This document shows, in pieces, positions 1-24,518 of a stretch of DNA of 29,460 nt. This DNA comes from a virus: the IMG/VR virus record IMGVR_UViG_3300023116_000230, positions 1 to 29,460 of that record. One strand, given 5' to 3'. Both the position numbers and the translations under genes were made by a program. The stretch's first letter is position 1, and every line of letters begins with the position of its first letter. The notes beneath the pieces are model-generated. The model had not been told where the DNA came from. It worked only from the letters and a program-made list of their open reading frames with translations, and made no database searches.

Positions 1-1679
1 GGGCTAAGTTCCCCAAGAAGTTCTGCTATCTGACTAGCAGTGGGCTCTACCAAACTAGGCTTTTTAAGTATCAAGGTTTTTCTATCTTTGCCATATGGAA
101 TTTTAGTGTAATCCATCGTGAGATTGATTGATACGTCTCTTTTGTACTCTGTTCGTCCTCCAATATACTGTAGAACAGGACCGGTTGCCCTACCAATAAC
201 TGGAATAATAGCAAATACGTCTCCCGGATATGTATCATTAACCTGAATACTCTCGGCAATAACACCAGAAATAATATTTGTTGGCCTATTATTAAAGGCT
301 AAACTATAAGTGATTTCTCCGTTGTATTGATTGGTTCCAAGGCTAATTGACACGGGCTGAGAATTTAATGCGACAGCAACGAGATTATTCGCACGTTTGT
401 ATATGTCACTAGTCAGTCCAAATTGACCACTATTGGATATTTGATTATATTTTCTAAGAGCATTAGCATAAGCACCGCTTGCGGCGTTTAGAGATGGGTC
501 TCCAAAACCAGAAGGGGAAATACTTCTTAAACCCTTAATGTTTCCATCAATATTAACCGACACAAATGGATCTGTATTGGAGGTCGCAGTGGTCATGCTG
601 AACGTTTCATTAGCAGTGCCACTACTCAAAACCCAACTTTCAGATACAGAATAAGTACCTTCAGTAACTCCGATCTGCTCAGTTCTTACGTGGTTATACC
701 CGCCGTAAGAATCTACTAAGTTTACAGTTCCAGAACCTATTTGTCCTGCGATATTTGGATAAGGTATGCCGCTGCCACCATATGATAATCTCTTCTGAAC
801 AAAATTCTTCGCCTGCTCCCAAGCGGGACGATTAATCGTGTTAGAAGGATCTTGATTATAGTTATAATCTAAACCGTCTGGACCGTAAACGGTTTTACCT
901 GTGGCATTTAGATTATGCGTAATTCTGTATGTTATCGGATTGTCAGGGCTTTCTCCACCAGCTTCGTCTGCCTCTAAGCTCCAATCTTCACTATAGGTTT
1001 CAATAAAAGCTGTGTCTTCATCGTCTAGCAACGTTTGAATTGTTGTTGCTGTGCTTCTTACGTCAAGACCGCTATTGGCAAAAGTGCCCTCCAAATCTAC
1101 GAGCAATTGATCGTCATCAAAATTACCTCTAAGAAGATAATCTGCTTCTAGGACGATAGTAAATTCAGATTTTGTAAGATACGGCCCCTCTGTAAAATCA
1201 ACACTTACAGTTCTGGGGTAACAAACAACTGTAGCACCGGCATTGTCTAGAACATCAGAAAGTTCTACTCGTTGACCATCTTGAGCAAATAGTGCCCGAA
1301 GAGCACGTTGCTTGCTAACAATAGCAGAAGCAGGCTTGGTGTTTTGAACGATTGTGGGATTGGAACCTTCTATGATCTGCTGTCTAGGCGGCTTGGCCCT
1401 AACAGATAGTGGAACATTATCAAATTGATTATATGGGCCAATGAGAGTCCCTGTATCGGCAGGACCAGTAAAGAAATCAAAAATCTGGTCCGTTGCAGAA
1501 TTTAGGGCATAGGGTGTGCCATGTTCTGGAAGTAACGTACCCGTCAGCGTGATGGTATAAGTAGCACCAAAGGTGCCCTGCTTATTTTTTAATACAGTCT
1601 CAGAGATTTGTATAAATGGCGTTGGCCGTATGGAACAAATCTGTGTTGGGTCGTTTTTATAGTGTACTTTTATAGGCAT
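1..1679 (-). CDS. Virion structural protein, probable tail-tip/baseplate component (3' end outside window)
   Basis: An open frame starts at the ATG at 1679-1677 and runs without a stop to the window edge, giving 559 complete codons. It begins MPIKVHYKNDPTQICSIRPT. The ATG follows directly on the TAA of the 4220-aa gene (TAAATG), with an AGAGG SD seven bases upstream, so the two are translationally adjacent. The protein is rich in predicted beta-strands (for example YTITLTGTL, SEFTIVLEADYL, NPITYRITHNL, DVSINLTMDY). About residues 160-200 read as a strand pair followed by an acidic 'DLEGTF' stretch, and a central segment reads YNHVRTEQIG then EGTYSVSESWVLS. I see no catalytic motif, signal peptide or membrane segment. 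Its place two genes after the tape measure suggests a tail-tip, Dit-like or baseplate structural role. This is inference from position, and I recognise no named family. The coding call is firm; the function is tentative. Confidence 0.88.
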   Translation of the reverse strand, partial: MPIKVHYKNDPTQICSIRPTPFIQISETVLKNKQGTFGATYTITLTGTLLPEHGTPYALNSATDQIFDFFTGPADTGTLIGPYNQFDNVPLSVRAKPPRQQIIEGSNPTIVQNTKPASAIVSKQRALRALFAQDGQRVELSDVLDNAGATVVCYPRTVSVDFTEGPYLTKSEFTIVLEADYLLRGNFDDDQLLVDLEGTFANSGLDVRSTATTIQTLLDDEDTAFIETYSEDWSLEADEAGGESPDNPITYRITHNLNATGKTVYGPDGLDYNYNQDPSNTINRPAWEQAKNFVQKRLSYGGSGIPYPNIAGQIGSGTVNLVDSYGGYNHVRTEQIGVTEGTYSVSESWVLSSGTANETFSMTTATSNTDPFVSVNIDGNIKGLRSISPSGFGDPSLNAASGAYANALRKYNQISNSGQFGLTSDIYKRANNLVAVALNSQPVSISLGTNQYNGEITYSLAFNNRPTNIISGVIAESIQVNDTYPGDVFAIIPVIGRATGPVLQYIGGRTEYKRDVSINLTMDYTKIPYGKDRKTLILKKPSLVEPTASQIAELLGELS

Positions 1680-4600
1680 TTAGAAACCTCTTATCCTTAA
1701 ATCAAGAGAGTCTGTAGTTGCAGTGCTCCCCATGACTAAATTTAATGAACTTGGGAGTGGGCCACTTGGTGCTGATATGTTCAAGAACAATCCACTTTGA
1801 TCTATCCCATCGGCAGAAGCAATCCCACTTACGCCAAAATTGTTCAGTCCTAAAGTATTATACACATTTGCACTGCTTGCTCCCAACATAGAAAGATTCA
1901 TGTTTCCAGACTCTAATACTGGTCTGCCAGAAGCAACCAGATTCATAGAACCATCTTCTTGAGTTCCAAATAGTATCTTTAGATCAACCTCTTTTACGTA
2001 TGGTCTGTGTGCCACAAAACCCTTTCTGGAGGGGTCAAAGCCAGAAACTTCTAAGAAAATGTCACCATTTTGATTGCTAAAGATAATTCCTGAAATTTTG
2101 TATTCAATTGGGTCGCCAGAAACGTTCTGGTATACCCTAGTTTCCAATCTATCTGTACTTTCTTTTGGTTTTTTATTGCCAAATACGTGGGCATCTATCC
2201 ATCCGCCACTGTTTGGAATGGCTGGAATTTGCTCTCTGAGCATAGCGTCAAAGGTGTATGCAGATCCAGCGTTTGCAAGACCACTCGTTGGGTGATTGCC
2301 GCTTGTAGGCCAATCATGGTTTGGAGATCCAATTACCAGCGTGTAATCACTATCACCACGGAAAGAGCGGTAAATGGCTACAGATTTTCCAAAGTTGTCG
2401 TTATCAGACCCACTAGCAGTTAGGATGAATCCTCCAAGTCCATCATCATCAATATCTGTTTGAATTCTGTCTTGATATCCCACTGCGTACAGCTTTTCAG
2501 CAAACTGCCACTCTTGCGTTCTGGCTCCAAAATCTACTAATTCATTTCTGTAGTTGTAAACAGCACCACCATTAAGGATCATAAGACCGCTATTATTGTT
2601 GAACTGGTCTACACGGATACCAGAATCGGCTAAGTCATAGAAGGAATGGGACGGAATGTCGTATTCGCCGTTAAAGCTCTTTCTTTGGAAAGCTGTACTT
2701 AAACCGCTTCCATTGTAGGCGACCGCACCGCTGTAGATATGGTGATGTAAGGTAGCGAAGTCATGATTAGGAGCACCGATTGCTGCCATATCACAATCCA
2801 TAGAAACAGAGAATCCAAATCTATCGCCCCTTCTTCCATATTCAAGAATAAAGCTAGGATCTGCAATTTGGTGTGGACCACGCTCTGCTTCCAGAACCTC
2901 AATTGGGCTTGGAGAGAAATCGTAAATTCCGACATTTACATTATCAGGCTTGATCTTAGCACCAAACTCCCAAGGTAAACCCTCTGCAATTACATTTCTG
3001 CCGTTGTCTGTGTTGTTGTATACAAATGCGGCACCAGCACCACCATCTGCACCAATCTTGGCTCCAGACCCAGCTTCTCCATTTTGAATCTCATGCCACT
3101 GGACAACTCCACTAATTCCGCTAACCGCTGTTTCAGCAGTAAACGCATTGTAAGGAGCACCAACAATTAACTTACCATCATTGATCTCAATAGAGTAACC
3201 GAACAAGTCGCCCGGACATCCAGAATTAAATATGTCATAATCTAGATAATCTGTGTTTTCTATCTTCATCAATTCTGTCATGCCGCCACCAATACCGGCA
3301 TCAACAATAAAGTCTTTATCTGTATCGTCATTAAGATCTAACAGCAAGTCGTAATCTTGATAGATACCACCTTGGTAATTTACAATATCTAGGAAATCAC
3401 CGCTAAATCTTGGATAAACACCATGAGTTCCAAGTGCGTCGTTATTAAAGAACTCTTCTTTTCTAGCCTGTATTTTTAATGGCTCTTTAATTTCTTCAGG
3501 TCTGGTTAATGTGGTTGGATCATAAGAATCTTCATTATCTGAATAAAGACCCAAACTACCTACCACGCCATTTCCACCCCAAAGTCGGCTTGGGCAAAGA
3601 GTGCCAGCACCAATAGATGATCCACTTACGGCAACATATTTAGCTGTACTGCCACGCTCAGGAGCACGTATCTTCTGTGTAAATTCCCAATTCTTTCCAG
3701 CAACAGTATTTCTAGGAATACCAAGATCAAACCCTCCAGCCTGACCCTGCGGAGAACCGGCTCCACCGCCAAATCCTACGCTGCCATCTCTTGACTCTTC
3801 TGGACTAGGCGGATACAAGTTTCTAACAAAACTCTGATTACCCTGAGTAGCAGCCGCCCTATAGTGAGGACATTGCCCCTGCAATAACGTAGAGTCTGAA
3901 ATCAGAATAATCTTTGATCTTCTAGATCCATTTCTGAACGAAGTAAAGTTCTCAAACTCTTCTGCTACAATGACTGGGCCATCTTCTATTTCTTCCTGTG
4001 CCCAATCTACAGAAGCCTCTAAACAATCAGGATCGTCAAATGGAATGTCTCCACAGTATAATTGACTCTTATGTTTTACAGGTCTTGATTCGCCCGGAAT
4101 GTATCCGCTCTGAGCAGGGTTGACAATGTACATACAATTAACTGGAATAGGAGGACCATCTGGCACAAGTCCACTACTCGTAGTTGTACTAATTGTGGTT
4201 ATTACTTCAAGTGGTGCTCCCGATACTGAGAGAATACGAGGTGTTGAAGGTGGTAAAGGAATACCAGATAACAACTTAGCATCTATAAAGCTAGACCATC
4301 TGTTTGTATTAAATTGTAATTCTAACTCGGTTATATTCTGTACCTCATCAGTTCTAAAATCAAATACAAATTGAGAAGGAGTAAAGGTAGTAGTCTTATT
4401 CAATTCTGTAATAGTTCCACATGAATCAAAACTTGTGGATGCTGTGCCAAAATTGCCCTCTCTTTGTATCTCAGTAGGTGTATCTAGACATATTCCAAAC
4501 TCTTCAAATTTAGTCTCAGAAACCCAGTTGACCCAAACTCTGTATCCAGATCCCGGTTCGATTGGGAATTTAACAGAAGCGTTTCCATCAATCGTCCAGT

Positions 4601-7600
4601 TGTTTCTGCTAGTGTACTCTTTGTATGTCTGAATGACAGGATTATTGAAGGATATTATTCTTTCGAAATCTGCCCCTCCAGAAAGCGGCACAATAGACTT
4701 CTTATCCGCCAAACCTAAATCACTTCCCTCGCCACCAGTCTTTTCACTAAATTCAATTCCACTCAAGCTAGTAGCAAATTGATAGTTGGGGAATGTCCAT
4801 GCATATCCATCATCACAACCGCTAACACTGTCGGTTGCATAGTTAACAATCTGGCTGGAAGTTTCTCTACCGTAAGTCTCTACCACTGATTCTCTATGAT
4901 ATTCACCCTGTTTTGGTAGGAACATTGGCCTACTGGTGACACCAAGTCCGCTACAGAGATAATCAATTCTATCAGCAGTTTCTTGTGCATCTTCTTCATT
5001 ATCCGCATTATACGTAATGATAAGTTTCTTTTCACCAGTATCTAACCAACTGTTTAAACTTGCGAAGTCACTGCTTGATGGTTTTCCAGATGGGAACGCA
5101 AGCCAAGCAAAATCTATCTGATCGTTCAACGCACTCATTGGTTGATTCTCTTTAAAGTATCCTCCAGCGAGCAACAATTCAACATTTATTTTATTACCGA
5201 GACTATGATCTGTTGATGAACCATCATAGTTGTAAGCACTGTTTAAGGAGGATCTTCCTGTAAACCCATTAATTTGAATACCTTTAGCAACCTCATCGCA
5301 GTTCTTGCGAATCATATTGAGATAGAATTCTGTATTCTTATCGTCATTATTGGTTGGGTGCGTGATACCTCTACTAGCATCATCTTCGGGCCATTGACCT
5401 GCTAAAATATAGACTCTAGAGTTATTGAGCGTTCCATCGGATTTTTTACCAGATTCAACAAGTGCAAAAATATGATCTGGATAGACAGTTTCTCTAACTG
5501 TCCTCTCAGATGTCGATGAAGTCCCCGTAGCTTGCAAGATTCCATCTCGACCATTAAGGGTGTCTGGATCAAACATGTCTCCACCAAATGTGAACTCATT
5601 GAATAATCCAGATATAGATGAATCGGTATCCTCTTGAATAGAGAAAGCAATCTCGTCTTCATTAACTTCTGCTAAAGAAATGTCTGTTTCGTTTTTACGT
5701 GTAACTTTATACTTGTAACGCTGCTCGTAATCGCACTGAAGTCCAGAAGTCGCCGGTTCAAACCAGTAAATATCAGGTAAGTGTTCAGCGGTAGTCAAAA
5801 CTGGCGTTGGTGATTGATCCTGCTTGAAGAATAGCGGCTGTGGTGTGTCATCACAAATAGGAGTAAAGTTATTGAACAAGAAGGGCCAGTTTCTCTGGTA
5901 TCGAACAACTTTACATGTCTTAGGTGTGGTCAAAACACAAGAGTCATTCCATTCAGCACGTAAATCTCCACGATTACCATCTAGTGGGAACTCACACTTT
6001 GTATTGATGATCTGCGGTGATCCATTACAACTCGCACCGTCTGGACAGCCAATTGTAGCAAAGTAATCTTCTAGACCGTCTCTGGATAAGTCTATTCTAA
6101 TATCGCCAACACCCTTGACATAATATTTACCGTCATACTCAATTGTTCTGGCAGTAGAGTATGCTGGCAAGAATGATGCGGTTGCATTGTACTTATCATC
6201 ATTTAAATCTTGCTGACTAACACATCCTTGTATCGAGTAGCTTTGATCTTTAGCGGCTTGAATCCGCATCCTAGAACCTAACTTTTCTAGGATTTTGTTA
6301 ATAATATCATTAGACTCTTTGTATAGTCCATTATCTTCCCATACTGGGTCGTTACCAACCAAGACGAGATTTCTATCGCCAAGCTCCAGCCAATCTTTTA
6401 TGTTGTCGATAATCTCATCACTGGCAGCGTCAACTTCTGGCGTAATAATAAACGCAAGACCGGCCTCTTGAGGAATCTCAATTTCCGAGAAGTCCATTCT
6501 TCTCCAGTCTTTACCTTGGTAGTCTGAAAATCCGGTAGATCCAGAACCAAAGATTAAAGGCCAGTTACTTTCATCATAGTATCCAGCGTCTCTTTCTTCA
6601 TCGTGAGTTGATCTATCTAAGTTTCCGAAACGGCCAAACTCTACAACCTCGTTATGTGGGAAGTATTTTCTATTGTGGAACATTCTTACCGCACCAGCGT
6701 TATGATAAGAAGCCCAAGACTTAACATTATCGCCCCAAACATTAATGTCTTCAAATTCGTTGAAGGAGTCTGTAGGTGCCCCAAATGCTACAATCTCACC
6801 ATCTTCGTCTACAGAGCAACTCCAGCCCATTCTGGATGTTCCCGCAAACTCGTCGATGAGGAACTTTCTTGTTCCGATATATCTAACATCATTATGACCG
6901 TACTCAAACGTCAACTGATATGGCTCTGGAAGTGAAGAACCCCAGAACGTAACATCGTTTCGATATTCAAACCTGTCTGGAGATTTGATGTAATCATAAG
7001 TAGCTGTCTTAGCGATTGCTGCACCAGAAGCACGCTCTATAGAATCATAGTATTCTACAGCGTAATTAAATGGACTTCCTTTGAAGACAAGCCATCTTCT
7101 AATATTGTCGTATACCTTTTGAATCTCCGATTCGCTTCTTTCATAAATCTTACATGGGTTGTTATTCCAAGGAGATCCAATTGCTAATACTTCTGAATTC
7201 TTACTAAGAGCAACAGAGTGTCCGAAACGGTCATTGTAAGTTTTGGCATATCCAGCACCAAATATACTTTCTGGATCATCAAAAAGTTCAGATTCGTCGT
7301 TAGGTGAAACAATGACTTGAACACAGTTAAAATTATCACGCTCTTTTTCAAACAAGTAAACTCTACCGCCAGATGCAGGAGGAACTTGGAACTCAGTAAC
7401 AACTGACCCGTGAGTATTGCCCCAGATTTGACCAACACCGCTAGTGATAAAGTTTCTATTTAAAGTAGTGTTAGTAAATGTTGTTGATAAACGACCACTA
7501 TCAAAAGTATCCTGCATTAACTCAACAGATGTATCCGCCCAGTCTTCAGATTTACCTATGACTGTATGTAAGTGACCGCTTTGCTGAATACCTTGAACAA

Positions 7601-10600
7601 AGTCAGTAACACCACTAGCAAATGAGTGCTTCTCATAAAAATCTTGGAACTTATCGTATATATTGTAAACTGTGCCATTTTCATCGGCATATTGTAAAGC
7701 TCCAGCAGTAGATCCTGTCTGCTCTTTGAACATACCAATAATAGCTGGAATACCACTGTAGGCAGCAGCATTTGGATTACCACTTGGGAAAGCTGTAAAG
7801 AATCCATCGAGAACAGTATCGAACATTTGGTTGAATACGACCGGCTGACCAGAAGCAACAAAGTCAGCAAGAGTTCCTGATCCACCAAGTACGCCAGAAC
7901 CAACCTCAGTTAGAAGATCAAGGTCGTCTAGTCTAGGAATGTATCTGTGTGTAAACCAATCAGACTCATCGGTAGAAATATTAGGATAATCCCTATTGGA
8001 GTAGGTTAATTGGAAGACAAGTAGATTTGGCTTAATTTCTGCATACCACTCGTCTGGCCCAGCGTTCCAAGGTGCTGAGAAGTATTTCCAAAGAATATTA
8101 AATTTACCAGCCGAAGCAGCAACCTTTTGTAACTTAGGCTTATTGTATGCGAACAGGTCGGCAAAAATCATTCCCGCAGTAGGAACACCAGAAGTTACAA
8201 GATCGTCAAACTGTCTTGACCATTTAGCACGAGGTGCTCCAACCGCAATAACTTCTCTGTCACCACTGGCCGACAATGACAATGATTCACCGAACTGTCT
8301 ACCTTCTTGACCAATCTGCCACTTGTTTCCAGAGATAGAAAAATCACCAAATGATAATAGATTATCTGTTGTTCTCTGGATATAATCTTTTCTAAAGCCA
8401 GATGGTAGCATCAACTGCTCTTCCAAGACCCAATCTGCTTTCTTGCCAGCCTCGTCTTGCCCTCTTCGATACAAGAATACAGCACCCGCACCGCTGACTT
8501 CTATGTTACCAAAACCACCACCAGATGGATAAACGCCATAGTCAGGAATTGTGATATTAGGTGCGGCAACAGCCATGATATCTTCACTGACAGCAACGTT
8601 TTGACCAAATTTGTCACCAATGCTTCTGCCAGACGCAACGATCAAGTCAGAGTCAGAGTAAAGGTTTGCAGAAGGAGGAACACCACCGGCATCGTCACCA
8701 ATAAGTTTGACACCAGAGAATACAATGTTTCCATTGCAGTCCTCTGTACAGCATCCGCTACCGTCTGCATACCAAGCTGGACCACACATTCCATATTCCC
8801 ATTCCTCAAATGTTCTTGGGACAGGAATAGCGTCAGTAGAACCAGTAACAATACTCATGGTTGCAAAGTATGGAGTAGAAGGAAGAAGTTGGGTGTACTT
8901 CCTTATTCCATAGTAGTTTCCGCTGTATCCTAAACCGCCTTCAAAGTTGATCGCACCAGAATTTGTGTAAGTAGCTTTGGCCCGGAATATTCCACCTTCG
9001 TTGCATGTCTCTTCTCTCCAAACAGTGCAGTCTGTTTCAAGTGCGGCATCAACCGCTTTGCTTGGGCTGTCCCCTGTGCAAGATCCATAACCTATTAAGT
9101 CTACACCTCTAATCTCATTGTCTGCGGACAGGGAGGCATAAGAGTTATCTTCTAGTTCAATTCCGGTTCCATAGTTATTATTGTGCCACAGTCCAAATGC
9201 AGATCCAGCACCTTTAGATCCTACATTGTAACTTGCCGTAACAAGATTAACTGTGCTTGTCAGTAAAGATTCTACTAATGGGTTATGGAGATACAGATTC
9301 ATGTCTGTATCAATTATGTTTGGAGCATTAATATACAACGGCATAGTAGACGTTGTTCGTGAGCCCGGAATCTGGTTTCTTCCAAACATGCTCAGATTAA
9401 TAAATCCACTTGCAGCAGTCTCTTGTGTATTCCCAATAGACCTATTATATAGGTACATTGGAATTGATCGGTATATACTAGTTCTATCACCAAGAGATGC
9501 AGACATATTCAGATTGAGGAATGGACCCTCTGGGCTTTCACCGAAATCTACATTATAGACAGTGAGAGGAAGACCAAAGATATTCCCGCTGCCATAGTTT
9601 GGAGAGTTTGGATCTGAAGTATCTGAATTTCCATCTAAGGAATTGTCTAGTGATCCGAGGACAACTGGTAAGGCAAGTGGCATACTTCCAGAAGCTATAT
9701 CTGGAATTTGACCACTGACATATAGATTGAATGAGATGTCGCCAGACTGTGGCGGGATGAACAAGTTAAGTGCTTCACTACGCTGGAAAGCACCACTAAC
9801 ATTGAGGTGGAAACCAGAAGGAAGCCCTTCTGAAATAACATCGTAATCAAAAGGAACCTGAATAGTAAGATCTAAGCTGTCATTGACTTCCCTTGGGAAA
9901 CCACCAATGTTCATATTCAGAGTATTGGACGCAGGATAAGCACCGCTAGAATACAAATTAAATGTGCCACTATTAGCAGTTTTGCAAATATTGACATCCT
10001 GCATCCTAACATGCGAAGAGTGCATCTCAAGTCTAGAATCAAACGCTGGCCCAGATGGGTAAACCAAGTCGTACTGAACGAACATTTGATTTACGTCGTC
10101 TTTAAAGTATCTTTCTGAGAAGTCTTTTAATCTTGGCTCTTCGGGGAAGACAGTCCAAGCATCAGTTTCTTCACAGATAGAATCGTAATCAAAAACGGAT
10201 TCAAGTTTGATTAAGCAACTAGACGGTTTAATGTAGTGAGTTTTACGGTTTACAAGTCCCCAGTTTGGTTCGTCTGGAGTCCAATATGGCTCCTGCTTCT
10301 TGGTGTAAAGACTAACGATCATCTGAGGTCCAGAAGGCATGATATCAGTACATGCTTCCCACTCTATGCCTGCACCAGTCTTATGCTCAATAACGGTCTC
10401 AACAACGAGGGCACGTTCAGAGAATTTGTATCCGACTGGTAGGTTTTTAGTTATTCTTCTATTTACAGCATAGAATGAATCTTGAACGTCTGACAAATGG
10501 AAACGTAGGAAATCGTTTTCCATCTGTGTATGATATGCAACACCACTATCTACATTAGACAATAATGGTAAGTCATTGTTTTGTGAGTAACCAGAGCCAT

Positions 10601-13600
10601 GATGATTTAACTCAAAGATAATATGTTCTGCGTTTGGACGTTTTTGCCACTGGTCAAACCCAAATCCAAACTGACACCACTTAAAGTCACCGATAGCCCA
10701 ATCGTTGTAAGTATCTTCGTTTACTCTGTCCCAAAGTTTATATCTGTCATTAGTATGAGACTCGTCAGGATCAAAGAACTTAGCACGACTATTTTCTAAG
10801 AAAACATCTGCGTTAACGCCCTTATAAGTTTTATCTGCACCGGACGCTACAATGTTCGTACCAAATCCGTACAGGGTATCAACACCAGAACTATAGGTAG
10901 AGACACCAAACTCACTGACCAGCATATTCATGCCCACGCCAGAGCCAGCAGAATATCCTAAGACAATATTTGCATCGTTTGCATTTTTATGGAACGGAGA
11001 AGATGTAGCTCTCAGTACATCAAAGTCAGATCCACCAAATTCATTATCAGTGTAAAGTCTAAGTCTATGGTTGCCATTATCATTATATGTAAGAATAGTA
11101 TTTAATGGGAATTGATAGCCGCTATACTTGATAGTATCTTTGACTGTTATAATATTACCATTGACATCTTGGGCGTAACCGCAAAGGAATCCATCCTCAT
11201 AGCCGAGGGCAAAATCCATGTCTTCAGCAGTGCTCCACTTAGACACAATAACGCCACTGTCGAACAGGTCGTAGTCTACTCCAGAAACGTTTGCGTCTGG
11301 TGTGAATCTAGTGAAGATAGCAAAACCGCCAGATACATCAACAGGGCCAAAGTCAATATTCTGACCACCAGCTTCACCACTAATTCTAATGACTCTATCA
11401 AATGCGTCGGCAATCTTTCCATACAATGGGTTTCCAACAAAGGTTGTAGAACCATTGGATAAAGATGTCCAGTCAGTAGTGGTATAGTTACCGCTGTATC
11501 CCGGAAGTTGATCGTTAAACAATGTGCCACTTGCAAATCTCCAACCAATATTATGGTGAATCTCTGGATCAGTCAAGCACAGACCACTGAGAGTACCCAA
11601 GCCACTAGGAGAGGATGGACCCATGTCAACAGACAATACATATCTATTTTCTGGCCCAAACGAATCAAACTTGTAGTAACCTGACAAGAATGGGTAGTCT
11701 ATAGTTGGATTTTCAAAACCAAAACTGAAGGAGTCTAGGTCGTATGGTCCACGAACTGTACCCTCTGAACCTCGCCACCTTCTAGAGTAGTTTGTTTTGA
11801 TTGTATCAGGCGAACTATAAGCATGGGGAAGACCTGCGATGGCAGAAATTGGTTGATACCCAGAGCCAGCGTTTAGTATGTCATCATAAGATTCCATGCC
11901 CGATGGGAACAATGCACCTTCTGATCTACCAGCCTGAGCCTTGCCTATCTTCTCACCACCTTGAGTGTAGATGTTTAGACCGTCTGCTGGTGCATATCTA
12001 GCACAAAGCTCTATGTATGCAATAGAAGCACCACTAGGAAGTGGATAAATGTCTAAGTATAAATGTTCCAATAACGAGCTTAGACTATAATCTCTAGATA
12101 CTCCATACCTTACATTGTCATCAAGAATAACCAAGGGTACTTCATAAAGTTGGAAGTCAGTAGTATTAACCACTGGGTACTGGGCCAATTTGTAATGGTC
12201 GTTACCGCTCGCTTCAAAGTAGTCATCTCTCTCAGATAGTCCAGCACCACCCATTGTCCAGTCTGAGTTGTCACCGTAGAAGCCTGATAGAACTGGGTGC
12301 TGTCCAATATGGGGCACAAATTGGTCATTTAAGAAAACGCCAGACGGGTCTTGAATAAATCCTCCAGATGGGCTTGTTACATTCAACAACTTGTCGTCGC
12401 TGTAACCAACAACATCAAGTACATAGTCTCTGGTGCCCACTTCTTTTTTAGCCAGAACCTTGAGTGTTAAAGATTCTACATTAAAGTAAGGCGAGTCTTC
12501 TTGTATCTCTTCTGTACGTTTTTCTACATTAAATGCACCGCTGGGTGAGAACCATATATTCTTTGTGCCCTGATCAAATGCAAAGTCAAAATCACCCGGA
12601 GTAATTTCATCTACTTTTGATCTTCCATGCTTAAACTTCAGTATGAGCTTACCAGAGTCAGCAACGTCTCCACCCTCTGCGGTCCGTAGCTTGATGTAAC
12701 GGTCATCATTTTGAACTTTAAGAATATCAATAAGTTCTTGTGCCCCGCACACATCTTCATTTGTTGCACTAAGAGTGTCGTTTTCCCATATGTTATTATT
12801 TACCGCTGGGTATATTGTAGTGTCATATGTATTGAGGGGCATAAAGTTAGGCTTGATACACCTCTCAAGACGCCTACCTTTGTCCCTAACAGCTACTTGG
12901 AATGGGAGATAGTTTTCTGGTCTTGGTCCGAATCCGCCACTATTACAAATCTCAACAGCAGAGATTCTAAAACCTCTTGTTGGATTGATAAACCGAACTT
13001 CTTGAGTTGATAAAGGTTGACCATCTAGGGCAAGGTAGTTATTTCCACTAGCATAGAATGTTTCGGGAGTAATGTAGTTATCTTCGAAACCCTCGTCAAA
13101 ACCCTCTGTAAATGGATCATCTAAAGAAACGGCACGCACACTAAAAGACAGTTGGTATCCAACGTCTTCGTGCATGTGGGGAATACCACGTCTTTGCCAG
13201 TCGTACCTATCTGATATAGCATTTAATTCTGGCAAAGAAGAGTATGTTGAAAAGTTTTCATACTCGTCGTTAGCATCGCCCTTTATCTGTATGTCATTAT
13301 ACTTTACAATTAAGTTTCCAGAAGGGTCGGAAAGTCGAATATTGTATAATGTATAAAGAGGAGGAGTCTTAGACTCTAGGTTTGATAATGGTGCTGATAC
13401 ACGAATTCTAAACGCAGAATGATCTGGCCTAACATTTAAACTTGTTAGGTTACAATTATATTGGAAGAGGCCCTCTGTATGTATTGTATTCGGCTCAATA
13501 TATGAATTCAAATCATCTGATAGATTATTAGAGTCGCCGCCATCTTTTGCTGTACCTTCATAAACACCTTCATCAATGTAAGACCAAAGATTACCGGATT

Positions 13601-14342
13601 GATTGTATGGGGCAATAAACGACCCGAACCCGTCTGCAACAGAAAGGTCGCCAGAAGGATACAGCTTACCCTGACAGTAGAAGTCGCCAAAGTCTCCAGC
13701 CATCTTATCTACTGTGTTGTCAAAATCTCCCTCACCAACAACCTGCTGAGAGATAGAATAGTCGGCAATGAGGTCTTCGTCAATCTCTCCATCGCTCTCG
13801 ATAGACACTAAAGGAAATGGTATCTCTACTGATAATAATCTGGATAGCTCGCCCTCGCCCTCTAGCAAGATATTTCCATTACCAAATGATTTCGCTATAG
13901 TTGCATTTGGAGGTGTGGGATGACCTATACCACTGGCAACTACACTGTCAATTTGGGCAGTAGTAAAATCAACATCGCCATCATAAAAGATTAATGCAGA
14001 GCCATCAGCGTATGTATTTATGACACTTACTGTCTCTGTAAATGGCACAGCACCAGCTAGACCAGAGATTGTTACTTCCCATCCAGCCTCTACAAATTCA
14101 CAGCTTTCTGGATCAGAGCATCCACTGATGGTAAAGTACGGACCAGATCCATCCAATACTGTACTAAAATTTGCGGTAAGAGTTTCACCCGGAGAAGTAA
14201 TTTTAGAATCGTTCTCAAGAGTGGCAGAAAGTGCCCCCTCATTTAAACCAAGAAATGCATCGACTTCTGCACCACCGGGGCAGGTAGCAGATGTCCCCTC
14301 GATGCACGAACATTCAAGATTTTTTAAGAATGGTTCCGACAT
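1680..14342 (-). CDS. Giant modular tail-tip/adhesin-like structural protein (4220 aa)
   Basis: The ATG at 14342-14340 has an AGGA SD that overlaps the TAG stop of the tape measure gene, so the genes are coupled. Visible modules, with approximate residues: a Cys-rich N-terminus (C11, C13, C21, C75, C81); beta-rich domains to about 970; a LamG/concanavalin-like segment at 976-1152; 'xNLxxxG' strand repeats at 1456-1704; four FG-GAP_2-like propeller repeats at about 1908-2526, with FGxS...hhAhGAP cores followed by GAVFLY-type strands; two GldG/GATase-like alpha/beta segments at about 2627-3014 and 3074-3514; three more FG-GAP repeats at about 3710-4010; and a second 'NLxxxG' strand block at 4129-4220. 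No signal peptide or membrane segment is seen. LamG and FG-GAP folds are known for ligand or glycan binding and protein-protein contact. The position directly after the tape measure suggests the tail tip or central fibre, hence host recognition (inference). It is far longer than usual tail-tip proteins. Two or more ancestral genes may be fused. Confidence 0.93.
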   Translation of the reverse strand: MSEPFLKNLECSCIEGTSATCPGGAEVDAFLGLNEGALSATLENDSKITSPGETLTANFSTVLDGSGPYFTISGCSDPESCEFVEAGWEVTISGLAGAVPFTETVSVINTYADGSALIFYDGDVDFTTAQIDSVVASGIGHPTPPNATIAKSFGNGNILLEGEGELSRLLSVEIPFPLVSIESDGEIDEDLIADYSISQQVVGEGDFDNTVDKMAGDFGDFYCQGKLYPSGDLSVADGFGSFIAPYNQSGNLWSYIDEGVYEGTAKDGGDSNNLSDDLNSYIEPNTIHTEGLFQYNCNLTSLNVRPDHSAFRIRVSAPLSNLESKTPPLYTLYNIRLSDPSGNLIVKYNDIQIKGDANDEYENFSTYSSLPELNAISDRYDWQRRGIPHMHEDVGYQLSFSVRAVSLDDPFTEGFDEGFEDNYITPETFYASGNNYLALDGQPLSTQEVRFINPTRGFRISAVEICNSGGFGPRPENYLPFQVAVRDKGRRLERCIKPNFMPLNTYDTTIYPAVNNNIWENDTLSATNEDVCGAQELIDILKVQNDDRYIKLRTAEGGDVADSGKLILKFKHGRSKVDEITPGDFDFAFDQGTKNIWFSPSGAFNVEKRTEEIQEDSPYFNVESLTLKVLAKKEVGTRDYVLDVVGYSDDKLLNVTSPSGGFIQDPSGVFLNDQFVPHIGQHPVLSGFYGDNSDWTMGGAGLSERDDYFEASGNDHYKLAQYPVVNTTDFQLYEVPLVILDDNVRYGVSRDYSLSSLLEHLYLDIYPLPSGASIAYIELCARYAPADGLNIYTQGGEKIGKAQAGRSEGALFPSGMESYDDILNAGSGYQPISAIAGLPHAYSSPDTIKTNYSRRWRGSEGTVRGPYDLDSFSFGFENPTIDYPFLSGYYKFDSFGPENRYVLSVDMGPSSPSGLGTLSGLCLTDPEIHHNIGWRFASGTLFNDQLPGYSGNYTTTDWTSLSNGSTTFVGNPLYGKIADAFDRVIRISGEAGGQNIDFGPVDVSGGFAIFTRFTPDANVSGVDYDLFDSGVIVSKWSTAEDMDFALGYEDGFLCGYAQDVNGNIITVKDTIKYSGYQFPLNTILTYNDNGNHRLRLYTDNEFGGSDFDVLRATSSPFHKNANDANIVLGYSAGSGVGMNMLVSEFGVSTYSSGVDTLYGFGTNIVASGADKTYKGVNADVFLENSRAKFFDPDESHTNDRYKLWDRVNEDTYNDWAIGDFKWCQFGFGFDQWQKRPNAEHIIFELNHHGSGYSQNNDLPLLSNVDSGVAYHTQMENDFLRFHLSDVQDSFYAVNRRITKNLPVGYKFSERALVVETVIEHKTGAGIEWEACTDIMPSGPQMIVSLYTKKQEPYWTPDEPNWGLVNRKTHYIKPSSCLIKLESVFDYDSICEETDAWTVFPEEPRLKDFSERYFKDDVNQMFVQYDLVYPSGPAFDSRLEMHSSHVRMQDVNICKTANSGTFNLYSSGAYPASNTLNMNIGGFPREVNDSLDLTIQVPFDYDVISEGLPSGFHLNVSGAFQRSEALNLFIPPQSGDISFNLYVSGQIPDIASGSMPLALPVVLGSLDNSLDGNSDTSDPNSPNYGSGNIFGLPLTVYNVDFGESPEGPFLNLNMSASLGDRTSIYRSIPMYLYNRSIGNTQETAASGFINLSMFGRNQIPGSRTTSTMPLYINAPNIIDTDMNLYLHNPLVESLLTSTVNLVTASYNVGSKGAGSAFGLWHNNNYGTGIELEDNSYASLSADNEIRGVDLIGYGSCTGDSPSKAVDAALETDCTVWREETCNEGGIFRAKATYTNSGAINFEGGLGYSGNYYGIRKYTQLLPSTPYFATMSIVTGSTDAIPVPRTFEEWEYGMCGPAWYADGSGCCTEDCNGNIVFSGVKLIGDDAGGVPPSANLYSDSDLIVASGRSIGDKFGQNVAVSEDIMAVAAPNITIPDYGVYPSGGGFGNIEVSGAGAVFLYRRGQDEAGKKADWVLEEQLMLPSGFRKDYIQRTTDNLLSFGDFSISGNKWQIGQEGRQFGESLSLSASGDREVIAVGAPRAKWSRQFDDLVTSGVPTAGMIFADLFAYNKPKLQKVAASAGKFNILWKYFSAPWNAGPDEWYAEIKPNLLVFQLTYSNRDYPNISTDESDWFTHRYIPRLDDLDLLTEVGSGVLGGSGTLADFVASGQPVVFNQMFDTVLDGFFTAFPSGNPNAAAYSGIPAIIGMFKEQTGSTAGALQYADENGTVYNIYDKFQDFYEKHSFASGVTDFVQGIQQSGHLHTVIGKSEDWADTSVELMQDTFDSGRLSTTFTNTTLNRNFITSGVGQIWGNTHGSVVTEFQVPPASGGRVYLFEKERDNFNCVQVIVSPNDESELFDDPESIFGAGYAKTYNDRFGHSVALSKNSEVLAIGSPWNNNPCKIYERSESEIQKVYDNIRRWLVFKGSPFNYAVEYYDSIERASGAAIAKTATYDYIKSPDRFEYRNDVTFWGSSLPEPYQLTFEYGHNDVRYIGTRKFLIDEFAGTSRMGWSCSVDEDGEIVAFGAPTDSFNEFEDINVWGDNVKSWASYHNAGAVRMFHNRKYFPHNEVVEFGRFGNLDRSTHDEERDAGYYDESNWPLIFGSGSTGFSDYQGKDWRRMDFSEIEIPQEAGLAFIITPEVDAASDEIIDNIKDWLELGDRNLVLVGNDPVWEDNGLYKESNDIINKILEKLGSRMRIQAAKDQSYSIQGCVSQQDLNDDKYNATASFLPAYSTARTIEYDGKYYVKGVGDIRIDLSRDGLEDYFATIGCPDGASCNGSPQIINTKCEFPLDGNRGDLRAEWNDSCVLTTPKTCKVVRYQRNWPFLFNNFTPICDDTPQPLFFKQDQSPTPVLTTAEHLPDIYWFEPATSGLQCDYEQRYKYKVTRKNETDISLAEVNEDEIAFSIQEDTDSSISGLFNEFTFGGDMFDPDTLNGRDGILQATGTSSTSERTVRETVYPDHIFALVESGKKSDGTLNNSRVYILAGQWPEDDASRGITHPTNNDDKNTEFYLNMIRKNCDEVAKGIQINGFTGRSSLNSAYNYDGSSTDHSLGNKINVELLLAGGYFKENQPMSALNDQIDFAWLAFPSGKPSSSDFASLNSWLDTGEKKLIITYNADNEEDAQETADRIDYLCSGLGVTSRPMFLPKQGEYHRESVVETYGRETSSQIVNYATDSVSGCDDGYAWTFPNYQFATSLSGIEFSEKTGGEGSDLGLADKKSIVPLSGGADFERIISFNNPVIQTYKEYTSRNNWTIDGNASVKFPIEPGSGYRVWVNWVSETKFEEFGICLDTPTEIQREGNFGTASTSFDSCGTITELNKTTTFTPSQFVFDFRTDEVQNITELELQFNTNRWSSFIDAKLLSGIPLPPSTPRILSVSGAPLEVITTISTTTSSGLVPDGPPIPVNCMYIVNPAQSGYIPGESRPVKHKSQLYCGDIPFDDPDCLEASVDWAQEEIEDGPVIVAEEFENFTSFRNGSRRSKIILISDSTLLQGQCPHYRAAATQGNQSFVRNLYPPSPEESRDGSVGFGGGAGSPQGQAGGFDLGIPRNTVAGKNWEFTQKIRAPERGSTAKYVAVSGSSIGAGTLCPSRLWGGNGVVGSLGLYSDNEDSYDPTTLTRPEEIKEPLKIQARKEEFFNNDALGTHGVYPRFSGDFLDIVNYQGGIYQDYDLLLDLNDDTDKDFIVDAGIGGGMTELMKIENTDYLDYDIFNSGCPGDLFGYSIEINDGKLIVGAPYNAFTAETAVSGISGVVQWHEIQNGEAGSGAKIGADGGAGAAFVYNNTDNGRNVIAEGLPWEFGAKIKPDNVNVGIYDFSPSPIEVLEAERGPHQIADPSFILEYGRRGDRFGFSVSMDCDMAAIGAPNHDFATLHHHIYSGAVAYNGSGLSTAFQRKSFNGEYDIPSHSFYDLADSGIRVDQFNNNSGLMILNGGAVYNYRNELVDFGARTQEWQFAEKLYAVGYQDRIQTDIDDDGLGGFILTASGSDNDNFGKSVAIYRSFRGDSDYTLVIGSPNHDWPTSGNHPTSGLANAGSAYTFDAMLREQIPAIPNSGGWIDAHVFGNKKPKESTDRLETRVYQNVSGDPIEYKISGIIFSNQNGDIFLEVSGFDPSRKGFVAHRPYVKEVDLKILFGTQEDGSMNLVASGRPVLESGNMNLSMLGASSANVYNTLGLNNFGVSGIASADGIDQSGLFLNISAPSGPLPSSLNLVMGSTATTDSLDLRIRGF
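1683..1957 (-). repeat. C-terminal 'xNLxxxG' beta-strand repeats of the giant protein
   Basis: Residues about 4129-4220 contain repeated short strands of the same pattern: SMNLVASG, NMNLSMLG, GLFLNISAP, SLNLVMGS and the final SLDLRIRGF. They match the strand repeats at residues 1456-1704 of the same protein, so the two blocks probably share an origin. DNA identity between units is low, so this is a protein-level repeat. A beta-prism or fibrous fold is likely but not proven. Confidence 0.6.
2311..3213 (-). repeat. FG-GAP_2-like beta-propeller repeats, second group (3 units)
   Basis: Three units lie at about residues 3710-3733 (GDLFGYSIEINDGKLIVGAP), 3838-3861 (GDRFGFSVSMDCDMAAIGAP) and 3979-4010 (NDNFGKSVAI...LVIGSPNHDW). 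Each has the FG-x-S-h signature, then the hhhGAP/GSP strand, then a GGAVYNY, GAGAAFVY or NAGSAYTF strand. This is the order in FG-GAP_2 repeats, which lack the DxDxDG calcium loop of classical integrin repeats. With the first group there are seven units, the usual number for an integrin-alpha-type propeller. Confidence 0.72.
3800..5123 (-). other. Second GldG/class I GATase-like alpha/beta segment in the giant protein
   Basis: At about residues 3074-3514 the first half reads DFAWLAFPSG, then LNSWLDTGEKKLIITYNADN, then IDYLCSGLGV: a hydrophobic strand, a helix with a WLDTG turn, a second strand, and a helix ending in LG. About 300 residues later, after a beta-rich insertion, come GPVIVAEEFE, SRRSKIILISDSTLLQGQC and NQSFVRNLY. 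The order strand / W-L-xx-G / strand / LG, then S-R-hhhhh-S-D and Nxx(F)xxN, resembles the GldG/DUF4350 fold. The identification is by pattern only. Confidence 0.35.
5300..6464 (-). other. First GldG/class I GATase-like alpha/beta segment in the giant protein
   Basis: At about residues 2627-3014, GLAFIITPEVD is followed by IKDWLELGDRNLVLVGNDP and IINKILEKLGSRMRI. After an intervening Cys-containing region come HIFALVES, SRVYILAGQWPEDD and NTEFYLNMIRKN. This matches the second segment element by element: WLxxGxxxLhh, then LG, then SRxxIL, then NxxFxxN. The two look like a diverged tandem duplication. The region between their halves includes the GCPDGASC motif. No catalytic Cys-His-Glu triad can be assigned, so a structural or binding role is more likely than an enzymatic one. 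Confidence 0.35.
6765..8621 (-). repeat. FG-GAP_2-like beta-propeller repeats, first group (4 units)
   Basis: Four units lie at about residues 1908-1928 (GDKFGQNVAVSEDIMAVAAP), 2013-2040 (GRQFGESLSL...EVIAVGAP), 2369-2394 (NDRFGHSVALSKNSEVLAIG) and 2503-2526 (RMGWSCSVDEDGEIVAFGAP, where FG has become MG). Three are linked to typical following strands (GAVFLYRR, GRVYLFEK, GAVRMFHN). The first strand is followed by WVLEEQLMLP, matching the W-E-Q-L end of FG-GAP_2 units. Large insertions separate units 2 and 3 (about 330 residues) and units 3 and 4. Confidence 0.75.
9229..9975 (-). repeat. Internal 'xNLxxxG' beta-strand repeats of the giant protein
   Basis: Residues about 1456-1704 carry a run of short amphipathic strands ending in Gly, Ser or Pro: TFNLYSSG, TLNMNIGG, SLDLTIQV, GFHLNVSG, ALNLFIPP, SFNLYVSG, FLNLNMSA, GFINLSMFG, DMNLYLHN, TVNLVTAS. 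Spacing is irregular (about 15-30 residues) and codons differ, so this is an old protein-level repeat. Such strand arrays are typical of beta-prism or fibrous adhesin stalks. Confidence 0.65.
10885..11415 (-). other. LamG/concanavalin-A-like domain in the giant protein
   Basis: Residues about 976-1152 read DRVIRISGE, then VDVSGGFAIFTRFTP, VIVSKWS, DFALGYEDGFLCGYAQD, HRLRLYTDNE, ANIVLGYSAG and MLVSEFGVSTYSSG. This strand order (F-tIffrf-P, K-w, fal-y-dg-l, lrlY-nG, i-lG, E-gvy) is the usual Laminin_G_3/concanavalin-like jelly roll. The family commonly binds carbohydrate or protein ligands. Binding residues cannot be assigned by eye. Confidence 0.55.
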
Positions 14343-14351
14343 TTATTTATC

Positions 14352-17300
14352 CTAAAGTACAGAGTCCTTCTTGACTAGATCACCAGAATTATTTGCTTTG
14401 TATTTTTGAATCTCATTTCCTACTTCGGTCAACAATCCATCCTTGATATCATCTTTCAAGGTTTCAAGGAATGATGCACCATTGAAGTTAACATTAATAT
14501 TTGTTGGATCTAAGGCCACATTAAATTTAGTGTTTACCAATTTCTCTACCGTTTCTGCAAATCCTGAGAAAATATTTGTTAAACCCGGAAGTGCGTTAGT
14601 AAACACATTAGCAATTCCATCTACAAAACCGCCATCGTTATAGTATCTAACACTACCACCGCCACTCAAAGCACCCGGAGCACTTGCTCCACCACCAGTA
14701 TTCATTGCCCTTAAAATTTGTAAGTTATTACCTCTATTAACTGCCGCACGATTAACAACAAATTCTCCCGGCGTTAACATGGCTGGAACCGTATCTGTTC
14801 CACGAGGAACGAACATTCCTCTACTTGCATAAACAACTCCACCTCTCGCTAACGCCTGTGCTGTCTGAGCACTTTGAACTTCTCCCAACTTCCTGTCAAA
14901 CGACAACTGAGCAGCATTAATTGTAGCGTCTTGGATTGCTATTTCAGCCTTGGCAAAAGCGGCTTCTTGTGATGCTAACCCACCCAATGCTCCAGCTAGT
15001 TCTCTTCCTTCTGCTTTTAATGCTTCTTCTTCTGCTGTCGTACCAGATAATACACCAGTTCCCTGAATTCCGAACCTTTGTAAAGTTAAGTCTTCTGCAC
15101 CACGGAGTTGCTGGTCAGATAACCCTTGTCCCTGAAGGGTTTTAAATCCAGCACCAAGGGCACTAGCACTAAACAGCCCAGCAAGCCCAGCACTACCAGA
15201 TGCGAGTGCAGCACCAGCACCAGCAGCGGCCTGTTGATCCAAGAACCCTTCTACATCTCCACTGATTAATTTATCAAGGGCACTTTTCTCTGCGGCATTT
15301 TTCTGCTTAACAATATTAAGCTCTTCTTTGAGTAGGGAGATACGTTGTTTTGTAAACTGAATTAATGCCTTGTTTGCAGCTTGAGCTTCTGGTCTCTTGT
15401 CTGCGGCAAATCCACCAACACCTTGGAATGGACCGCCTTTTTGTAGACCTGCACCAGCAGCCAATGCACCGCTAATAACTTGATCTGTTTGATCTGCGAA
15501 TGTCTGACCAATTTGAGCAGCAACAGCATTGATATCGGCAGCATCTCCAGTTGTAAGCTGTGCCCCTAAACCACCTAGTCCACCAATATTATTAAACTGA
15601 GCAATTCTAGCTCCCAACTGTTGCTCGCCGGTTAGCTTGGAGCCACCAAATGACTCAAACACTTTAGCTGCTTCTAGCTGTGTTTCAATAGCTTGGTTTG
15701 CAGCAGCGGCAGCTTTTTGTTCTAACTGTTCGCGATCCGCATACAACTTTGTCATGGTCGCATTGTGCTGCGACTGAAGTTTTACTGCTTCTCGGAAACC
15801 TTTAGATAATTCTTGACCATCTGCTAGAATTTGCTGAGTGAGTGCATCTAAGTCGGCATCACTAGCATCGCCCTCAATACCGGCAACATTTTTACGAATC
15901 ACTGCTTCAAGTTTGGTTTTGGTTGCATCGTCTGCTTTATCTGGAATAGCATCAAGCAATGCCTGTTCAAGCTGCTTTTTTCCTTCATCACCTTTTGCAA
16001 GTTCTAGACCGCCTAATTGGGCAGCAGCATTTAGACCAAACTTGTTAGTTGCTCTTGCAACATCAGCCTGACCACTAATAGAGGCGGCTAATGGAGATCC
16101 AGCAGGTAAAGAAGACAATAGTGCAGCTTTGGACTGATTGATTGCATCGGTAGCATCAACGCCCAGTTTTCCACTAGCATTGTCTAATTCTTCAGATAGT
16201 AGAGCCAAACTATTAGCACCAGTTTCTAACCCAGCAACTAGTTGGGCGGAAGCATTAGCAGCAGCACCAAAAGCTGAAACGATTTTGGTTGCATCAAGGT
16301 TTGCTTTGTTTAATTCTTGTTGAGCTTTTCTATTTGCTTCAATTGTGTCAACTTGTGCCAATAATTCTTTTCTTAGTGCTTCGTTACCACCAGTAAGGTT
16401 AATAGCTTGCTGTCTTAAGTCAGCGACACTTACGCCTAACCCATTAAGTCTCTGTATTTCGGCTCTGGTTGCTGAATCTATTGCTTTATTTGCTTTGTCT
16501 CTGGCTGGTCCTGTAAGGTCTTGAGCTTCTGCCCTAGCTGTGGCAAATGCCTCATTAACACCAGACAGTGCCTGACCTACATTTTGACCGCCCTTAATTT
16601 CTTCTGCTGAAGACCCTTGTCTAGATTCAATAAATCCAAACGCACTTTGGAATTGAGCTTGTTCTTTTTTCTGTGCTCTTCTTTCTACAAACCCTTCTGG
16701 ATCAGAAAATGCTTCGATAAACCCTTGAAGAGTGAATACTTCACCAATTGAACTAGCAACAGAGGCTTTACCAGCAGCTTCGACTGCACCGGCAATATTA
16801 TCACTGGCTTTAGCTTGCTCTTCTGCACGCTTGAACCACTGCTGGAACCCATCGGCAATTTGACTACCAACGGCAGCAATGGCAGCGACAGCAGCAACTC
16901 CACCGGTAATAACGCCACTAGCACGACCAATACCCCTCTTTAGGGCACCACCGGCTCTACCAATACCCCTCTTTAGGGCACCACCGGCTCTACTACCAAG
17001 GTTTCTGATTCTTTGAGCTAATCCACTTATAGCTTTAGCAGTGGCACCTACAGCTTTAGCAGAACCCTTCACGATTCTGGTAAAAGCGGTTTGCTTGTTT
17101 ATAAATTTAACAACCCCAACGGCTCCTCGCCCAAAACCACCTGCTAATTTGTTGGCACCATCTTTAAGTTTTTTAGCTCTTTCACCAACACGACCAAGTG
17201 CTTCTCGTGCCGCTTTGAGATTCTTCTCGCCTCCAATAAGTTGGACACCAAATTTCTTAAGCCCCTCAGTTGCATTTTTTGCCTCTTTAACTACTTTATT

Positions 17301-23303: not shown

Positions 23304-24518
23304 TTATAAACTAGCTACAAGATCACTTGGGAATGGTCCTGATCCAGCATCGTTTGCAAGTCCATTGGAATCAAATCCAGCCCCTAATGTAATTCCGCCA
23401 AAACCAAGTAGTCGTTGGTTCAGTCGATCCTGAACGTCCAACTGGTTGAAGTTAGAGAAACTGTAGGTACATGATACGTTACCACCACCAGCGTCACCAC
23501 CACCATAACTTACCGAAGACAATTTGTTCTTGTTTCCGAGGTCAAGTCCGAGACCACCTCTCATGAACATGAAGATAACTTCGTTGGAAACGTTGTTACC
23601 AGAGTCGATAGTAGCATTGAGGTTTGGATCGCCAAATTCATAAGCGTTTACAAAGTCACCTGAAGTGGTAATAGCTTCAATTTCACAGGTAACTTCAATC
23701 GGGAAGTTAGCGGGTCGGAAGTAAGGGGTTTTACGTCCCAACTCAAGAATATCTTCACGACTAAAGTCTGTACTACAAGTGAAGTTCTGAACGTGAATTC
23801 GAGGAGTACCATCTGCATTAGCAGCATTACCATATCCAGAACCGACAACACCATTGATAGCAGTTGGAAGAATACATCCACTAAGGATAACGTCTTCACG
23901 TCGTTGAATACCACCAGATGCGGCACCTGCAACACCAAAGGCTTTAGGTGAGTCTGTACCATTGAAAGCTGCAACGTCGCCATCTTTGATGAGAACATCT
24001 GTACCGGTCAGCCACAATTTATTATTACCAACCAGCGTGACAGATTCAGTTGCATTTCCATCAACTGGAATAGTGTAACTAACGGACGAGATGAACATAC
24101 CAGAGCAGTAAACTTCAACTTCTGCATCTCCGGGATCTGTACCAGTGCCAGCACCTTCTGCACTAGCCACATTGTTGGCCTGAGCGTCAAAGATACCAAG
24201 ACGAAGGTCACATTTCACATCTGATCGGGCGGCGAGGCCACTATTCGCCGTTCCAGCAACGCCAGTAGACGCCATGTGATAGATCAGTGGGTGTCCATCA
24301 ATAACCTTTTCCAAGGTTACTTCTACGTCTGGAGTACCTTCGATGTTTTCATAAATTTCGATTTGTGCAAGCTCAAACGCCTGTTCCAAGTTGAAGTTTG
24401 TGGTCATTCCAACACTCTGGACACCATGAACCATGTCTCCGACTTCAACACTGGCAGAGCCCTCGTTGTTGATAGAGACCGCTTGGCAAGCGTAAAATAT
24501 TCTATTGTTTTGGGACAT
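23304..24518 (-). CDS. Probable tail tube / major tail protein (404 aa)
   Basis: The ATG at 24518 has an AGGAG SD. Residues about 30-80 read VQSVGMTTNFNLEQAFELAQ, then a strand and loop (IEGTPDVEVTLEKVIDGHPL) and LIYHMAS. This is the pattern of tail tube proteins, in which a tube-forming beta-sandwich follows an early 'vqsv--ttnf' strand. Further on are VSYTIPVDGNATESVTLVGN and a repeated strand, IHVQNFTCSTDFSREDILEL, then PIEVTCEIEAITTSG. The last residues are Gly/Asp-rich. It is the only large protein immediately before the chaperone and tape measure genes, the normal site of the tube gene, and it has its own candidate promoter. A sheath protein is less likely, since the protein is small and lacks a C-terminal tube-contact domain I would recognise. 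The function is likely but not proven. Confidence 0.85.
   Translation of the reverse strand: MSQNNRIFYACQAVSINNEGSASVEVGDMVHGVQSVGMTTNFNLEQAFELAQIEIYENIEGTPDVEVTLEKVIDGHPLIYHMASTGVAGTANSGLAARSDVKCDLRLGIFDAQANNVASAEGAGTGTDPGDAEVEVYCSGMFISSVSYTIPVDGNATESVTLVGNNKLWLTGTDVLIKDGDVAAFNGTDSPKAFGVAGAASGGIQRREDVILSGCILPTAINGVVGSGYGNAANADGTPRIHVQNFTCSTDFSREDILELGRKTPYFRPANFPIEVTCEIEAITTSGDFVNAYEFGDPNLNATIDSGNNVSNEVIFMFMRGGLGLDLGNKNKLSSVSYGGGDAGGGNVSCTYSFSNFNQLDVQDRLNQRLLGFGGITLGAGFDSNGLANDAGSGPFPSDLVASL

Follow-up and report, generated by a model that had tools for sequence, protein, structure and literature searches.

The giant gene and its genome setting

The window, that is the whole stretch of DNA analysed here, is one entire IMG/VR record of 29,460 bases and probably represents a fragment. 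Three neighbouring genes on its minus strand are of main importance for this study:

14352-20849, minus strand: tape measure protein, 2165 amino acids (aa) (PhageMin_Tail, E 1e-23; PHROG tape measure, E 5e-27)
1680-14342, minus strand: giant protein, 4220 aa (residue n starts at position 14342-3(n-1))
3-1679, minus strand: gene next to the giant gene, truncated at the end of the window; in relatives it encodes about 600 aa

The open reading frame (ORF) of the giant protein has no internal stop. Because diverged relatives keep continuous ORFs (3820-5397 aa), the frame is genuine and not an artefact. The tape measure gene ends 9 nt upstream of the giant gene, in agreement with the original prediction, which had placed the one directly after the other. 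In 123 of 128 relatives, the giant gene is followed by an ORF of 400 aa or more at a distance of no more than 400 nt. The genes at 23307-24518, 24579-25556 and 3-1679, all located in the structural region around the tape measure gene, gave no match to Pfam or PHROG. Within the tape measure protein (14352-20849), three copies of a DTVPAMLTPGEFV-type motif were detected by pattern at residues of about 469, 798 and 2018.

For the giant protein, profile searches revealed no receptor-binding, Dit or Tal domain, and neither its full-length sequence nor profiles built from its halves and inserts had a sequence-level PDB match at E<0.1. A LamG/ConA-like lectin domain had been suspected by eye at residues 940-1180; it was dropped after the comparison of 17 members with Pfam and, by sequence, with the PDB delivered no lectin match.

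Seven FG-GAP units in two groups

Seven FG-GAP units are present in the giant protein, four at residues 1905-2526 and three at residues 3707-4034. Both the positions and the grouping into four and three correspond to what had been predicted, and the strand can now be added as minus. The units are treated here as blades of a propeller and are located as follows:

8673-8747, minus strand: strand before blade 1 (d0), residues 1866-1890, proposed as the outer strand of blade 7 that closes the ring (covariation with blade 7; integrin topology, PMC3192720)
8388-8636, minus strand: blade 1, residues 1903-1985 (Pfam FG-GAP_2; Gly/Pro conservation)
8214-8321, minus strand: blade 2, strands 1-2, residues 2008-2043 (family motif)
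7299-7397, minus strand: blade 2, strands 3-4, residues 2316-2348 (alignment)
6849-7253, minus strand: blade 3 with a small helical insert, residues 2364-2498 (Pfam FG-GAP_2; AlphaFold)
6648-6848, minus strand: blade 4, strands 1-3, residues 2499-2565 (cage Gly/Pro; weak profile match in 3 of 25 members)
3657-3716, minus strand: outer strand of blade 4, residues 3543-3562, GKNWEFTQKIRAPERG (W-x-F-x-x-K motif; covariation)
2934-3230, minus strand: blade 5, residues 3705-3803 (Pfam FG-GAP_2; Gly/Pro conservation)
2475-2843, minus strand: blade 6, residues 3834-3956 (Pfam FG-GAP_2; Gly/Pro conservation)
2223-2420, minus strand: blade 7, residues 3975-4040 (Pfam FG-GAP_2; Gly/Pro conservation)

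FG-GAP_2 (PF14312) is the single Pfam-A family that matches the 4220-aa protein (E=5e-23), with 81.5 bits against a curated cut-off of 23, and all of 12 relatives compared likewise score above this cut-off. The match covers five stretches, namely blades 1, 3, 5, 6 and 7, blade 6 being the best unit. A profile search with fewer than five units had been named in advance as speaking against the idea; exactly five were found. Units 2 and 4 are missed by Pfam alone. A unit profile was therefore built from the five Pfam-matched units and used to scan the sequences of 25 family members along with 500 shuffled ones. With this profile, unit 2 exceeds the best shuffled score (3.2 bits) in 17 of the 25 relatives and unit 4, a weak match, in three of them (3.8-6.5 bits). 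An eighth unit was not detected by this profile across the 25 members.

The family alignment gives a more uniform picture. At all seven units, 24-25 of 25 members retain the glycine of the FG turn and 23-25 the proline of the GAP turn, both residues belonging to the cage motif; in blades 1 and 4 both are present in every member. The distances between this glycine and proline in blades 1 to 7 of the window protein are 14, 18, 16, 16, 14, 14 and 21 residues, and all of them fit the published integrin cage motif phi-phi-G-phi-X13-20-P (PMC3192720). Degenerate elements are the third strand of blade 3 (CKIYER) and the FG of blade 4, which reads LGW in most members. The calcium motif DxDxDG is absent from the strand 1-2 loops of the blades, and most relatives have none; the one copy in the window protein, at residue 3963, precedes blade 7 and is not part of the strand 1-2 loop of that blade. 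With five units found by Pfam and two more by family profile and alignment, the presence of seven units in one protein is confirmed and lies far beyond chance.

Inserts in blades 2 and 4

Two of the blades are interrupted by large inserts with the following parts:

7398-8207, minus strand: blade 2 insert in the strand 2-3 loop, residues 2046-2315, predicted alpha/beta (AlphaFold pLDDT mostly 61-89)
3717-6647, minus strand: blade 4 insert (large insert), strand 3-4 loop, residues 2566-3542 (family alignment; blade 4-5 distances)
6207-6530, minus strand: first DUF4350-like (GATase1-like) stretch in the large insert, residues 2605-2712 (Pfam DUF4350 in relatives)
5388-5720, minus strand: beta-sandwich segment J1, residues 2875-2985 (AlphaFold pLDDT about 60-89; covariation with J2)
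4893-5141, minus strand: second DUF4350/ABC_transp_aux-like stretch, residues 3068-3150 (profile-profile match to the first; Pfam)
4227-4697, minus strand: beta-sandwich segment J2, residues 3216-3372 (AlphaFold; covariation with J1)
3783-4025, minus strand: insert end, residues 3440-3520, SKIILISDSTLLQGQ (covariation with the segment after blade 4, the insert start)

The position of the large insert within blade 4 follows from its outer strand. The segment GKNWEFTQKIRAPERG shares a W-x-F-x-x-K motif with the strands after blades 5 and 6 (LPWEFGAKIKP and QEWQFAEKLYA), and in a segment-level covariation map it is linked to the segment that directly follows blade 4. It was therefore placed as strand 4 of blade 4, and the large insert accordingly lies in the strand 3-4 loop of this blade. 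The original prediction had looped out a long region between blades 4 and 5. The long insert is indeed there; however, it is not flanked by two complete blades, as it separates strand 4 of blade 4 from strand 3. The second large insert, in blade 2, had been missed.

Over residues 2576-3545, the insert measures 876-1051 aa in 25 members, and the distance from blade 4 to blade 5 amounts to 955-1206 residues in 128 of 129 ORFs. The remaining ORF, which is cut by a contig end, gave a negative distance by a mis-assigned match and was disregarded. None of the 129 ORFs encodes a contiguous ring.

Concerning the content of the large insert, DUF4350 (PF14258) was matched in 14 of 17 relatives at E<1 (best E 8.2e-7), the seven matches displayed singly staying below the curated cut-off of 30.4 bits, and ABC_transp_aux (PF09822) in three of the 17. 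The window protein itself has no DUF4350 match. The two DUF4350-like stretches match each other in a profile-profile comparison (E 1.8e-7), whereas control segments of the protein gave nothing comparable. We take both families to have a GATase1-like fold. In the segment-level map, J1 and J2 covary strongly across the GATase1-like stretch between them, which suggests that they form one beta-sandwich with a domain nested inside; the insert end covaries with the insert beginning. The large insert nests two DUF4350-like (GATase1-like) domains and beta-sandwich segments, the exact folds being inferred. The blade 2 insert is predicted to be alpha/beta and is a segment of higher AlphaFold confidence; it has no profile match.

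A large family of relatives

Relatives were gathered by scans of viral contigs and by one scan of prokaryote genomes. After de-duplication the family comprises 91 non-identical propeller sequences, with identities in the insert down to about 22-30%. The pre-propeller part is up to 1,300 residues longer in L043, L044, L046, L051 and L055 (ORFs of 4847-5397 aa); it is therefore the N-terminal half that differs in size.

In seven sampled relatives (L098, L101, L109, L117, L126, L155, L158) the propeller is encoded by a stand-alone ORF of 2177-2498 aa that starts shortly before blade 1; in L126 and L158 it is preceded by an upstream ORF of about 1500 aa. The stand-alone gene encodes 2177 aa in L158, 2199 aa in L126 and 2227 aa in L109. 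Neither of the arcs and none of the inserts is separated from the rest in these short ORFs, which fits a single structural unit. In the case of L100 (4536-12031), the propeller ORF starts at blade 2 strand 3, and blades 1-2 would fall in a stretch of about 1 kb without an ORF over 250 aa. Here, a broken gene, an assembly error or a real split inside the blade 2 insert may be considered.

A 173-kb relative carries genes for terminase, ribonucleotide reductase, DnaB-like helicase and DNA polymerase, and is by these genes a tailed phage. Its terminase is only 25% identical to that of the Bacillus phages Staley and Slash, and its relatives among named phages are remote. When the giant protein and, in addition, two diverged relatives were used as tblastn queries, none of 50,697 phage records was matched. 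Two matches were obtained in bacterial metagenome-assembled genomes (MAGs) assigned to SAR202 and Verrucomicrobiales (L073 and L074). These are probably viral contigs in bacterial bins and possible hints on hosts; no host was read from them, since the first equals a viral contig in match length and identity.

Further FG-GAP-like proteins were observed in the same phages. The phage of L034 encodes a fibre-like protein with IGxxAG repeats and contiguous FG-GAP-like units between the repeats (L075:1285-6000, minus strand), which resembles the window gene at 26914-29460. In the phage of L044, a further protein of 1255 aa carries about six contiguous FG-GAP units (L076:1215-4979). Phages of this family may thus carry more than one FG-GAP propeller.

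Models of the two halves

AlphaFold was applied to two halves with their natural inserts, residues 1740-2860 and 2870-4060, and reached a mean pLDDT of 61 and 62, respectively, with blades 5-7 partly below 50. The best PDB match of the first half-model is integrin alphaX (E 2.4e-5), and those of the second are integrin alpha5 and alphaIIb (E 2.5e-3 to 4e-3); the weak matches of this second model in the PDB include some adhesin or carbohydrate-binding sandwiches. Separate small domains, which had been named beforehand as an outcome against one propeller, are not indicated, as both halves resemble integrin alpha best. Since the whole-chain TM-scores of both models are low, they point to the kind of fold and not to the ring. 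At the fold level, the first half-model also matches the BFVD entries A0A3G5A080, G9E5X1 and A0A6J5L8L4 (E 1e-6 to 7e-4).

Covariation between the blades

The blades of one ring touch mainly their neighbours. Covariation was calculated for the blade-core columns of the 91 non-identical sequences, which form 43 clusters at 70% identity, and each pair of blades was scored by its mean APC-corrected mutual information, a measure in which phylogeny is partially corrected. The circular order 1-2-3-4-5-6-7 ranks first of 360 possible orders. Of the 12 cross-arc pairs, 4-5 and 7-1, which a closed ring requires, are first and second with every mutual-information variant; among all 21 blade pairs they are first and third. 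In a cluster bootstrap, 4-5 and 7-1 taken together rank among the first three of 66 in 90% of cases, and after row permutation between the arcs this combination was never first in 60 trials. One ring is preferred to two self-closed arcs in 98.8% of bootstraps. The effect per column pair is small, and mean-field DCA gave a weaker signal, its means ranking 1-3 of 66 and its top-2% statistic 13-17 of 66. Top-scoring pairs of mean-field DCA were dominated by few columns and were left unused for contacts.

Of all pairs in the segment-level map, the strand before blade 1 and blade 7 covary most strongly. Integrins build the fourth strand of their blade 7 from the chain immediately preceding blade 1 (PMC3192720). 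These data support a closed ring of all seven units across the long insert, as had been supposed in the original prediction on the basis of their number. Because the correction for phylogeny is incomplete, we regard this covariation evidence as strong and not as final.

Proposed architecture and function

We consider it rather probable that the giant protein is a phage virion protein whose C-terminal part of about 2,300 residues is one integrin-type seven-bladed propeller, serving as a hub at the tail end with arms for host binding. In this architecture, the chain would make blades 1-4 and exit blade 4 between strands 3 and 4 to build a nested arm of about 970 residues with two GATase1-like domains and beta-sandwich segments. 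It would then return, complete blade 4 and continue through blades 5-7, and the strand from before blade 1 would close blade 7. The second alpha/beta domain would bud from the strand 2-3 loop of blade 2. As the integrin topology places strand 2-3 loops at one end of each blade and strand 3-4 loops at the other (PMC3192720), the arms of blades 2 and 4 should project from opposite faces of the disc, provided that the phage topology is integrin-like.

A location at the tail end is suggested by gene order alone, as the gene follows the tape measure gene. The propeller may act there as a rigid hub, and for its faces we infer that one is docked to the tail while the arms are presented to the host surface. 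Contact with the host is suggested since the arms would be exposed and are faster-evolving, and from gene order and domain types the giant protein probably functions in host attachment. Tentatively, and with less confidence than for the hub itself, we propose that an uncultured Caudoviricetes lineage uses an integrin-head-like adhesin at its tail end, in which a propeller closed across an insert of about 970 residues, with an I-domain-like bud in blade 2, couples host binding to the tail by two opposite arms.

The main rival accepts the closed propeller and assigns it to a structural tail hub or assembly scaffold, i.e. a baseplate or distal-tail part, with host binding left to separate fibre genes. 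A gene starting 9 nt after the tape measure gene, a conserved domain order and separate proteins with their own contiguous FG-GAP units in the same phages would all suit such a role, and much of the protein is well conserved, unlike a fast-evolving receptor-binding tip. However, the insert is less conserved than the blades, with 22% against 23-52% identity for the most distant member, which could suit an exposed arm for binding; carbohydrate-binding and adhesin sandwiches also occur among the weak PDB matches of the second half-model. We hold this purely structural role for unlikely.

Alternatively, blades 1-4 and 5-7 might be independent arcs, open or self-closed, with the insert as an ordinary linker between two half-propellers. 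AlphaFold gives moderate confidence for each half on its own; however, covariation is low for the self-closing pairs 1-4 and 5-7 and high for 4-5 and 7-1, with the bootstraps on the side of one ring. The total of exactly seven units, the insert of similar length in every relative and the best matches of both halves to seven-bladed integrin chains likewise argue against two arcs, which we regard as improbable.

GATase1-like folds include hydrolases, and two DUF4350-like stretches together with the alpha/beta domain in blade 2 could be read as putative enzymes for degradation or modification of the host surface, but this is very improbable, as no known enzyme family profile matched well and the parts of the DUF4350 literature available to us describe no activity.

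If the one-ring propeller hub is correct, closure is kept in 91 sequences with almost a thousand residues threaded through one blade, which would be an extreme and testable case of domain nesting. The stand-alone propeller genes of some relatives make structure determination practical. Should the protein be a host-attachment device, it would offer a handle on host recognition by a widespread uncultured phage lineage.

Comparison with known systems

Animal integrins and bacterial proteins are the best-known carriers of FG-GAP propellers. With the N-terminal propeller of integrin alpha chains, including the I-domain integrins (PF01839; PMC3192720), the phage protein shares seven FG-GAP/cage units with their key glycine and proline, the strand before blade 1 that is proposed to complete blade 7, and, in the case of I-domain integrins, an alpha/beta domain budding from the propeller; integrin alpha is also the best PDB match of both half-models. 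In contrast to integrin alpha, the phage protein is devoid of the DxDxDG calcium loops that several integrin blades carry, has inserts in blades 2 and 4, the latter of about 970 residues, and is matched by PF14312 with no sequence-level match in the PDB. It stems from a phage, where its gene borders that of the tape measure protein, and we do not claim it as an integrin; integrin alpha itself is a receptor subunit of metazoans that has further domains, a membrane anchor and a beta partner.

Bacterial FG-GAP_2 (PF14312) repeat proteins belong to the repeat family of the five strong phage units, and the bacterial cases described in PMC3192720 have seven or more tandem repeats, whereas the phage ring is interrupted by the nested insert of about 970 residues in every relative. 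DUF4350 (PF14258) and ABC_transp_aux (PF09822) are shared by weak to clear profile matches in the insert of relatives, but the setting here is a phage tail-region protein. The BFVD entries A0A3G5A080, G9E5X1 and A0A6J5L8L4, which are giant virus and uncultured Caudovirales phage proteins, resemble the first half-model at the level of fold; in contrast to the giant protein, they are mostly shorter proteins of eukaryotic viruses. A0A6J5L8L4 may be a member of the giant-protein family.

In the literature searched, with most subscription journals outside its scope, no phage tail-region FG-GAP protein is described. Already known are the fold type, from integrin alpha and bacterial FG-GAP proteins, and the PF14312 repeats. 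New are the setting in a phage tail region, the invariable nested arm of about 970 residues in blade 4 and its DUF4350-like content.
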